A model generated the notes under the pieces. It was not told the origin of the DNA and did not search any database. It was given only the letters and a program-made list of their open reading frames with translations. Of a DNA stretch of 64,000 nucleotides, positions 61,006-64,000 are shown piece by piece (within the stretch, counting starts at the first letter, position 1; each line of letters begins with the position of its first letter). The translations under genes were made by a program, and so were the position numbers. Source of the stretch: Pyxidicoccus parkwaysis (GTDB taxonomy: Bacteria; Myxococcota; Myxococcia; Myxococcales; Myxococcaceae); the NCBI RefSeq assembly GCF_017301735.1, contig NZ_CP071090.1, positions 11,577,001-11,641,000 of the forward strand. The letters run 5' to 3'.

Positions 61006-61197
61006 ATGGGTGAGTGGACCGACAAGGCCAAGGGCCGCGTGAAGGAAACCGTGGGCACCGCCACGGGCGACCGTGAGCTGGAGGCCGAGGGCAAGGCCGA
61101 TACCGCCAAGGGCAAGATCAAGGAGAAGGTCGAGGACGCGAAGCGCGCCGTGAAGGACGCGCTGGACTCCGACAAGCCGCGTAGGGAAGAGCCGTAG
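61006..61197 (+). CDS. CsbD-family stress protein
   Basis: 63 residues; AAAGGAG lies well placed before the ATG. The sequence is a small charged helical protein with the CsbD pattern KAKGRVKETVGTATGDRELE, EAEGKADTAKGKIKEK. CsbD proteins are general stress proteins of unknown mechanism, often sigma-B or starvation controlled. A strong hairpin follows within 30 bp. Confidence 0.88.
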   Translation: MGEWTDKAKGRVKETVGTATGDRELEAEGKADTAKGKIKEKVEDAKRAVKDALDSDKPRREEP

Positions 61198-61224: not shown

Positions 61225-61252
61225 CGGGCCGCGGGGACCTCCCCGCGGCCCG
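61225..61252. terminator. Hairpin terminator after csbD
   Basis: Perfect 12-bp arms, CGGGCCGCGGGG (61225-61236) and CCCCGCGGCCCG (61241-61252), with a 4-nt loop ACCT. It starts 28 bp after the csbD stop and is followed by TCGTCGTT. Confidence 0.8.
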
Positions 61253-62278: not shown

Positions 62279-63217
62279 ATGAGGACACAAGAGCTTTCAC
62301 AACGAGCCCTTCCCTTGCTGGCGGCGGGGCTCTTCCGGGGGCAGCGAGGTGTCTCGCGCCTGCTGGTGGGAACGGACTTCTCCCTGCGCTCCGAGTTCGC
62401 GCTGGCGCGAGCGCTGCGCCTGCCGTTGGGGCAGGGCGGCGCCTTCTCGGTGCTGCACGTGACGCCTCCGCTGGACGGGCATGACGGCGCGGGCGGAGTG
62501 GTGTCGTGCGAGCGCTGCCTGCGCAAGGCGGTGGCCTCGGTGTGCCGGCGGCTGCGCCACCGCGTGGACGTGGAGGTGCAGGAGGTGCTGCGCCAGGGCG
62601 ACGCGGTGGAGGCGGCCTCCGTCGCATCGCGCGAGCTGGGGACGGAATTGGTGGTGCTGGGCCGTCCGCATGTGACGTACCCCGTGCGGGAATTGGCCGA
62701 GGACTCGATGGTGCGGCGCATGGTGCGGCGGCTGGGCGCATCGGTGCTGGTGGTGGTGCCGCACCCGGTGCGGCCGTACGCGCGGCCCCTCGTGGCGGTG
62801 GACTTCTCGCGGGAGTCCCGCCGGGCGCTGGAGTTGATGCTGAGGCTGTGTCCGTCGCCCATCCCGGTGGACGTGCTGCACGTGGTGGACACGCGCGAGG
62901 AGGAGGCGCTGCTGCGAGCCTCCGGAGCGCCCGCGGAGCGGTGGCTGCTCCTCCGGCAGGAGCGCGAGCACGGGGCGAGGGTGGCGCTCGGCCGGTTCCT
63001 CGCTCCCTACCGTGAGACGGGGCGCGAGCTCGAGGTGCGGGTGCGCAGCGGCGAGCCCGGGGACGGCATCCTCGCGGAGGCCGCGGAGCGCGGCACGGAT
63101 GTGCTGGCGGTGGCGATGTCGGGCACGGAGGCGCGCACGCCGCTGACGGAGCGCGTGCTGGCGCGGGCCGGCTGCGACGTGTTGGTGGCGAGGCAGGGCC
63201 GGCCCACCGCCTCTTGA
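62279..63217 (+). CDS. Tandem universal stress protein (two UspA domains)
   Basis: 312 residues with two UspA folds. Domain 1 (about 25-160): RLLVGTDFSLRSEFALARAL..ELVVLGRPHVTYPVRE..SVLVVVPH. Domain 2 (about 168-305): PLVAVDFSRESRRALELML..TDVLAVAMSGTEARTPL..CDVLVARQG. The ATP-type signature G-x2-G-x9-G(S/T) is only partly kept, so nucleotide binding is uncertain. Domain 1 has an inserted loop with a CERC motif after HDGAGG. A GGAGG precedes the ATG. It is followed by a hairpin and an ABC exporter gene 35 bp downstream. Confidence 0.88.
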   Translation: MRTQELSQRALPLLAAGLFRGQRGVSRLLVGTDFSLRSEFALARALRLPLGQGGAFSVLHVTPPLDGHDGAGGVVSCERCLRKAVASVCRRLRHRVDVEVQEVLRQGDAVEAASVASRELGTELVVLGRPHVTYPVRELAEDSMVRRMVRRLGASVLVVVPHPVRPYARPLVAVDFSRESRRALELMLRLCPSPIPVDVLHVVDTREEEALLRASGAPAERWLLLRQEREHGARVALGRFLAPYRETGRELEVRVRSGEPGDGILAEAAERGTDVLAVAMSGTEARTPLTERVLARAGCDVLVARQGRPTAS

Positions 63218-63218
63218 G

Positions 63219-63252
63219 CGCGGACGGAGGGTCCGCGTTATGAACGCGGACC
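63219..63252 (+). promoter_or_regulatory. Mutually exclusive hairpins at the ABC exporter start
   Basis: Segment A CGCGGAC (63219-63225), B GTCCGCG (63231-63237) and C CGCGGAC (63245-63251) allow A:B or B:C pairing. B:C extends to perfect 10-bp arms (63230-63239 with 63243-63252, loop ATG) ending directly at the GTG start. In A:B the loop is GGAGG, the probable ribosome binding site. Confidence 0.55.
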
Positions 63253-64000
63253 GTGTCTCCTCGCCCGCCTGCTTCCCCAGTCCCGCAGTCCCTCCTGGCC
63301 CGTCTGAAGAACACGGGCAGCCTCTTCCGGCAGCTGCCCGGAACCTTCCGCCTCTTCTGGCAGGCGAGCCCCCGCATGGCCGTGCTGCTGGGCGCGCTGA
63401 CGCTGGTGGCGGCATTGCTGCCCGCGGCCATCGCCTGGGTGGGGAAGCTGATTGTCGACACGGTGGTGGCGGCGTCGAAGGGCTCGGTGGAGGCGCGCTC
63501 CCACGTCTACGGCCTGGTGGGGCTGGAGTTCGGGCTGATGCTGGGCTCGGCGGTGGTGGAGCGCGGGCTGACGCTGACGCGCGAATTGCTCCGCGCCAAC
63601 CTGGGCAACCTCCTCAACGAGCGGATTCTGCAGAAGGCGCTGGAGCTGGAGCTGCGCCACTTCGAGGACTCGGACACCTACGACAAGATGCAGAACGCGC
63701 GGCGCGAGGCGAGCAGCCGGCCGCTGTCGCTGGTGATGCAGGTGTTCTCGATTGTGCGCAACGGAATCACGTTGAGCACCTTCGCGGCGCTGTTGATTGC
63801 GCTGTCTCCGTGGAGCGTGGCGGTGCTGATGGCGGCGTCGGTGCCGGCGTTCATCGCGGAGGCTCGGCTGGCGGCGGAGGGCTTCCGGCTGTACTCGTGG
63901 CGGGCGCCCGAGGGGCGGAAGCTGAACTACCTGGAGTGGATTCTCACGCGGGACAACCACGTGAAGGAGGTGAAGCTCTTCGGGTTGGGGCCGCTGGTGC
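63253..64000 (+). CDS. ABC exporter, N-terminal transmembrane part (truncated by window edge)
   Basis: 249 codons visible. An in-frame TGA at 63241 leaves the GTG at 63253 as first start. The N-terminus has SLLARLKNTGSLFRQLPGTF and TM1 MAVLLGALTLVAALLPAAIA. An EHEFD-like coupling segment ERILQKALELELRHFEDSD, then YDKMQNARREA, TM pair (NGITLSTFAALLIALSPWSV) and REVKLFGL-like NHVKEVKLFGLG identify the type-1 exporter membrane domain (MsbA/HlyB class). The ATPase domain should lie past the right edge. The substrate is unknown. Confidence 0.85.
   Translation, partial: MSPRPPASPVPQSLLARLKNTGSLFRQLPGTFRLFWQASPRMAVLLGALTLVAALLPAAIAWVGKLIVDTVVAASKGSVEARSHVYGLVGLEFGLMLGSAVVERGLTLTRELLRANLGNLLNERILQKALELELRHFEDSDTYDKMQNARREASSRPLSLVMQVFSIVRNGITLSTFAALLIALSPWSVAVLMAASVPAFIAEARLAAEGFRLYSWRAPEGRKLNYLEWILTRDNHVKEVKLFGLGPLV

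Follow-up and report, generated by a model that had tools for sequence, protein, structure and literature searches.

A promoter-like element with a Myxococcus hairpin between uspA and an ABC exporter gene of Pyxidicoccus parkwaysis

The 35-nt gap between a universal stress protein gene (uspA) and an ABC exporter gene in Pyxidicoccus parkwaysis resembles a promoter region with a superimposed hairpin, and does not look like the two-way RNA switch that a sequence-only reading had proposed at this position. Comparison with related genomes suggests that the exporter gene most likely has its own promoter and a leaderless mRNA. The window analysed here is a 64,000-nt stretch of the 13.2-Mb genome (G000:C1:11577001-11641000), and its features were followed through the genus group, namely Myxococcus in the wide sense, represented by 27 genomes including the window's own. 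The features discussed below are as follows.

62279-63217, + strand: uspA, universal stress protein (Usp) gene and upstream neighbour (Pfam PF00582 in two matched stretches, E 1.7e-24)
63217-63219, + strand: AGC, putative upstream (-35-like) element of the inferred promoter, invariant in 27/27 genus sequences
63219-63237, + strand: first stem, CGCGGAC / GGAGG loop / GTCCGCG, without support from the comparison
63230-63252, + strand: second stem, inverted repeat GGTCCGCGTT-ATG-AACGCGGACC of 10 pairs, covarying within Myxococcus
63239-63244, + strand: TATGAA, putative -10 box, inside the conserved GCGTTATGA
63251-63253, + strand: predicted transcription start, from the TA-box geometry of leaderless genes described in PMC3160421 and a genome-wide peak before ATG starts
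63253-63999, + strand: ABC exporter gene with a GTG start (Pfam ABC_tran, E 5.6e-31), 618 aa in total, cut by the window end

The exporter gene was matched in 49 of the 61 genomes searched, including all 27 of the genus, where it invariably has uspA upstream and the GTG in frame. Only the first 249 of its 618 residues fall inside the window, and the top NCBIfam match is MsbA_lipidA, with a score under that model's cut-off. The initial exporter codons align across Myxococcus, Corallococcus and Citreicoccus as M-[SA]-P or close to it. Two further records were encountered: a second, more distant exporter copy in a genus genome (L035, G009:C1:824900-826400; 75% identity), where a TA box precedes the GTG by 13 nt and no uspA was found in about 1 kb upstream, and a sequence titled Comamonas sp. 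KCTC 72670 (L170, BNCN01000005.1), which carries a Myxococcus-like exporter (87% identity) with a uspA neighbour and the hairpin, and looks like a mislabelled genome.

Promoter-like sequence ahead of the exporter gene

The strongest conservation at the locus is not pairing. In an ungapped alignment of the 27 genus sequences anchored on GTTATG, the invariant positions are the AGC, the TTATG at 63238-63242, and five further positions inside the repeat. The AGC is fixed 21 nt before TTATG, and since the position of the uspA stop codon varies, overlapping the AGC in some genomes and lying upstream of it in others, coding does not explain its conservation. The same spacing is found beyond the genus: [AG]GC stands 21 nt before T-TA at 15 of 17 other family loci, some of them without uspA (no other offset between 6 and 39 nt exceeds 8), and the exact AGC is present at 9 of the 17. 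This peak is absent in more distant loci (2 of 15). The test covered 32 hand-chosen loci with a TA box in place, grouped by hand into 17 family loci (seven from Corallococcus, together with the paralogous copy L035 in G009) and 15 distant ones. The fixed spacing of this bipartite element is shown statistically; that the element is a promoter we infer from sequence.

The downstream half of the element lies at a characteristic distance from the start codon. A TA dinucleotide occurs 12-16 nt before the start at 27/27 genus loci and at 17 of 22 other loci, compared with 0-5 for other 5-nt windows (L052, one of 23 loci, has no usable start and was left out of the TA tests). Since TAA and TAG codons inflate this count, 8 of the 17 matches being in-frame stop codons only, in-frame stops were also excluded, leaving 27/27 genus loci and 9 of 22 others against the same 0-5. 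The loci without a TA in this range are L042-L046; at four of these (L042, L043, L044 and L046) the bases immediately preceding the start resemble, by our reading, the tail of a different reading frame, so that a promoter of their own may not be needed. Within the genus, the ATG of the conserved TTATG stands 13 nt before the GTG in 23 genomes and 14 nt before it in 4, and the TA accordingly 14 nt before the GTG in the first class, which includes the gene in the window, and 15 nt in the second. No Shine-Dalgarno sequence was found in range of the GTG, the best match to AGGAGG being 3-4 of 6 positions in 27/27 genomes.

This geometry corresponds to that of leaderless genes preceded by a TANNNT box. 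PMC3160421 interprets TA-like signals located some 12 bp ahead of start codons as promoters of leaderless genes, which it reports in 8 of 33 delta-proteobacterial genomes; leaderless genes are likewise described for Mycobacterium and Deinococcus (PMC3898074, PMC12340547), and PMC8844925 refers to a public Cappable-seq data set for M. xanthus (E-MTAB-11042). Shared with these systems are the TA 12-16 nt before the start and the lack of a Shine-Dalgarno sequence in range. The locus differs from them in two respects: in Myxococcus the box falls within the loop region of an inverted repeat that covaries, and the final T of the TANNNT consensus is missing. That T is also absent, by our own reading, from 30 of 32 related boxes, which makes the claim of a standard box weaker, though not that of a promoter-like position.

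As in known leaderless systems, the genome shows an excess of such boxes before candidate ATG starts. In 1.664 Mb of this genome (742 genes, called with looser settings than in a first scan of 464 kb and 201 genes that it replaced), TANNNT was found 12-16 nt before ATG starts 39 times against 10.8 expected, and 23 times against 5.8 when out-of-frame offsets alone were counted, TANNNT being one of about ten patterns tried. Before GTG starts, the excess was not significant (14 vs 11.0 expected; out of frame, 7 vs 5.9), and in our judgement a genome so rich in GC probably yields mostly spurious GTG candidates. Shine-Dalgarno motifs, meant as a positive control, gave no clean peak and displayed only codon-like periodicity. 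Judging by the enrichment before ATG starts, leaderless genes do not seem to be rare in this Myxococcus genome. A scan for sigma-70 promoters between 62400 and 64000 found none.

Covariation in the inverted repeat

The second stem, folded alone, forms 10 pairs closed by an ATG triloop at -16.6 kcal/mol (z -6.0; 0 of 200 shuffles as good) and outcompetes the first stem in a 45-nt context (z -3.0). In a 101-nt context the overall fold is unexceptional (z -1.38; 16 of 200 shuffles as good). A search of 1.664 Mb of the genome, window included, for perfect stems (10 or more pairs, loops of 3-6 nt) gave 38 hits, corresponding by hand count to 30 distinct places, and in the same 1.664 Mb a 7-mer followed by its reverse complement and then by itself within 34 nt occurs 6 times, the occurrence at 63219-63252 included by our reading. 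Such features are rare and not unique, and since structure in a single sequence is weak evidence, the argument must rest on conservation. No match to Rfam covariance models was found at E up to 1 between 62000 and 64000. Elsewhere in the window, a perfect 12-pair stem (CGGGCCGCGGGGACCTCCCCGCGGCCCG, 61225-61252) lies outside the range of the terminator scan described below, 27 nt past the stop of a small ORF (61006-61197) that looks CsbD-like.

Across the 27 genus sequences, the second stem is paired in 89.1% of cells, compared with at most 51.3% for versions in which the partner is displaced (slid) by 1 to 3 columns, and it contains 22 double-change cells, compared with at most 10 in the slid versions. 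To account for shared ancestry, changes were simulated along the tree of the exporter gene, their number in each column being kept: pairs 7-10 are paired in 84 of 108 cells against 42.2 expected (p 0.0002), with pairs 7 and 8 carrying the covariation signal (p 0.005 and 0.025) and pairs 9-12 not significant on their own (0.11-0.21). The stem around the ATG is present in 25 of 27 predicted folds by our own reading, altered in L005, L006 and L023 and lost in L021 and L027. Four genomes have an extra base before the GTG, and in three of them (L019, L022 and L025) an 11-pair stem again ends one base before the GTG. Together, the pairing relative to slid versions, the tree-based simulation and the predicted folds indicate that the second stem is a selected pairing within the genus, and its outer pairs are shown statistically to be selected as pairs.

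It could be argued that only the promoter is real and that the repeat is a by-product of shared ancestry and drift in a GC-rich genome, since perfect stems of this size recur at the 30 places noted above, the six inner pairs scarcely vary and could be explained by the promoter, and the covariation comes mainly from two pairs. This account sits poorly with the combined tree-aware probability for pairs 7-10 and with the sharp drop of the slid versions, and we regard it as very unlikely.

Selection on pairing could act on DNA as well as on RNA. Operators of dimeric repressors can overlap a -10 box, and a dimeric regulator binding the palindrome across the -10 box could repress or tune the exporter promoter, the arms covarying as both half-sites follow the protein. 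The repeat is indeed centred on the inferred -10 box, the feature it shares with such operators, and near-invariance over its inner 15 bases extends to the sequence itself as well as the pairing. One of the two covarying pairs (columns 23 and 41) shows equal numbers of G-U and A-C departures, 3 sequences each, so that RNA and DNA are not clearly told apart by the pairing data; G-U accounts for 8 cells of distinct rows across the four outer pairs. In contrast to such operators, GCGTTATGAACGC has a single exact occurrence per genome in the 4 genus genomes searched, and in this genome the 15-base core with at most 2 mismatches is found at 30 sites against 27 for a reversed control. No regulator gene was recognised by inspection among the nearest downstream ORFs, and two arm positions have changed symmetrically within one genus, outer positions changing in pairs between species, which is unexpected for a single operator. 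Overall, we consider an operator rather unlikely.

The possibility that the element belongs to a repeat family or regulon was also pursued and set aside. The 13-mer that, as noted above, is single in 4 genus genomes is absent from G033, which belongs to another genus; in three genus genomes, the bipartite pattern was found at 8 sites against 5 for reversed controls, and GCGTTATGA at 15 against 27. A one-mismatch site near 1,747,963 was dropped, as it overlaps the end of an ORF that appears by inspection to be aminopeptidase-like. A mini-ORF starting at the ATG of the loop was rejected as well: this ATG is always out of frame with the exporter, and the frame it opens ranges from 9 to at least 754 codons, the longest reaching the end of the locus, with no conservation of length.

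The first stem and the proposed switch

The sequence-only reading had described three segments able to form two mutually exclusive stems, and had interpreted them as a translational or attenuation switch. The segments are all present (CGCGGAC at 63219-63225, GTCCGCG at 63231-63237 and CGCGGAC at 63245-63251), GGAGG (63226-63230) forms the loop of the first stem, the exporter GTG stands at 63253, and either stem can fold as RNA on its own, the first at -12.8 kcal/mol. The search for covariation in relatives that it had called for upholds a structured element at the exporter start, namely the second stem at 63230-63252, and gives no comparable signal for the first, which barely rises above its slid versions.

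Specifically, the first stem is paired in 68.3% of cells, far less than the second, compared with 59.6% at a slide of -2 columns and 57.1% at +2. Its 11 double-change cells are fewer than those at slides of -2 (13) and -1 (15), and its covariation score (0.119) is also below theirs (0.147 and 0.129). It does exceed nearly all column shuffles, with 5 and 4 of 500 reaching its values, in a control that ignores relatedness. In folds with the 3' arm omitted, the first-stem helix appears in L001 and L003 and is absent in L002, a close relative, and the GGAGG loop is not kept across the genus (GGCGG in L003). The first stem is most likely a local accident.

The idea that two such stems toggle translation or attenuation of the exporter draws on the feasibility of both in this sequence, on the possibility that the first forms earlier during transcription, and on its margin over the column shuffles. 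Against it, only one of the two stems is conserved, and the first is not distinct from its slid versions. A ribosome-binding site hidden and freed in turn is not apparent, since GGAGG lies 22 nt before the GTG, which is too distant for it to serve the exporter, and is unconserved; nor was any terminator-like site found between 62400 and 64000. A transcription start at the GTG would moreover exclude both stems from the main mRNA. The promoter evidence predicts a start downstream of segment A, the first of the three, an outcome that the sequence-only reading had itself named as counting against a switch. We therefore give the switch very little chance of being correct.

A possible role for the hairpin on read-through RNA

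We propose instead that the exporter promoter lies in the 35-nt gap, with its upstream element around the AGC at 63217-63219 and its -10 box at TATGAA. Judging from conservation and geometry, RNA polymerase would start at or within about two bases of the GTG and produce a leaderless mRNA without a Shine-Dalgarno sequence. In Myxococcus, the bases flanking the -10 box would have evolved into the inverted repeat that ends one base before the GTG. With transcription starting at the GTG, the main mRNA would lack the stem, whose action would be confined to DNA or to RNA that reads through from uspA, any such transcript containing the repeat. On read-through RNA the stem would fold over the ATG loop and abut a GTG that has no ribosome-binding site, and such mRNA would presumably yield no exporter, leaving exporter output to the gene's own promoter alone. 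Both in the window and in three of the four genomes with the 14-nt spacing, the 3' arm ends at the base before the GTG, so that the stem would close off a start codon lacking a ribosome-binding site. We consider the chances of this whole account, from promoter and leaderless mRNA to silencing of the GTG on uspA read-through mRNA, to be about even.

Hairpins acting in cis can block a start codon or a ribosome-binding site, and the present locus shares with them a stable stem ending beside a start codon. It differs from them in that there is no Shine-Dalgarno sequence to mask and no conserved alternative stem, and in that the hairpin lies upstream of the predicted transcription start. A literature search combining Myxococcus and leaderless gave, among the matches listed, no title about leaderless genes of myxobacteria, and one combining leaderless, hairpin, readthrough, internal promoter and start codon gave no such arrangement in titles and abstract openings.

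Other genera indicate that the hairpin is younger than the promoter-like element. L028, L029 and two Archangium loci (L184 and L191) retain TTAGA...GTG without a palindrome, and no uspA was found within 1.5-2.5 kb upstream. At 8/8 Corallococcus and Citreicoccus loci (seven and one, respectively), uspA lies 26-85 nt before the GTTATGA core, compared with 19 nt in the window, and these loci lack a palindrome, with structure after uspA no greater than expected by chance (z -1.45 to 1.04). The palindrome is thus best seen as a Myxococcus addition around an older element. Adjacency to uspA had seemed to go along with the hairpin when the 27 genus genomes were set against L028-L030, a link refuted by the Corallococcus and Citreicoccus loci, where uspA and the core occur without it; the same observation weakens a role on read-through RNA. 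In all seven Corallococcus loci (L178-L182, L185 and L186), the conserved TTATGA contains an ATG that shares the exporter's frame and precedes a TTG by 15 nt, and the start codon may thus differ between genera.

The Corallococcus and Citreicoccus loci also bear on a further explanation, in which the hairpin is the 3'-end stem-loop of the uspA mRNA, as a stabiliser or a terminator without a U tract, and overlaps the exporter promoter by position only. The hairpin lies 12 nt past the uspA stop codon, and 22 of the 30 perfect-stem places noted earlier overlap no called gene, by a hand count on a simple caller that misses genes; the stem at 61225-61252 likewise follows the stop of a small ORF, at 61197. 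Against this stand the empty terminator scan between 62400 and 64000 and the eight loci where uspA is followed by no structure above chance, and an mRNA 3' end leaves unexplained why the stem ends at the GTG in both spacing classes. Such a function strikes us as improbable, more so than an operator.

Within the proposal of a promoter with a hairpin acting on read-through RNA, the repeat around the -10 box may more specifically be a translational insulator, clamping the start codon only in uspA read-through mRNA and leaving the leaderless mRNA free of structure. We put this forward tentatively, as a reading that is more probably wrong than right and about on a par with an operator. If true, such an insulator would work by distinguishing leaderless from internal starts, and would illustrate a way for a genome to uncouple a leaderless gene from the gene upstream of it. 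The locus offers a small test case: within 35 nt, the end of one gene, the transcription start of the next and the choice of its first codon have to be accommodated, all under a genus-specific hairpin.
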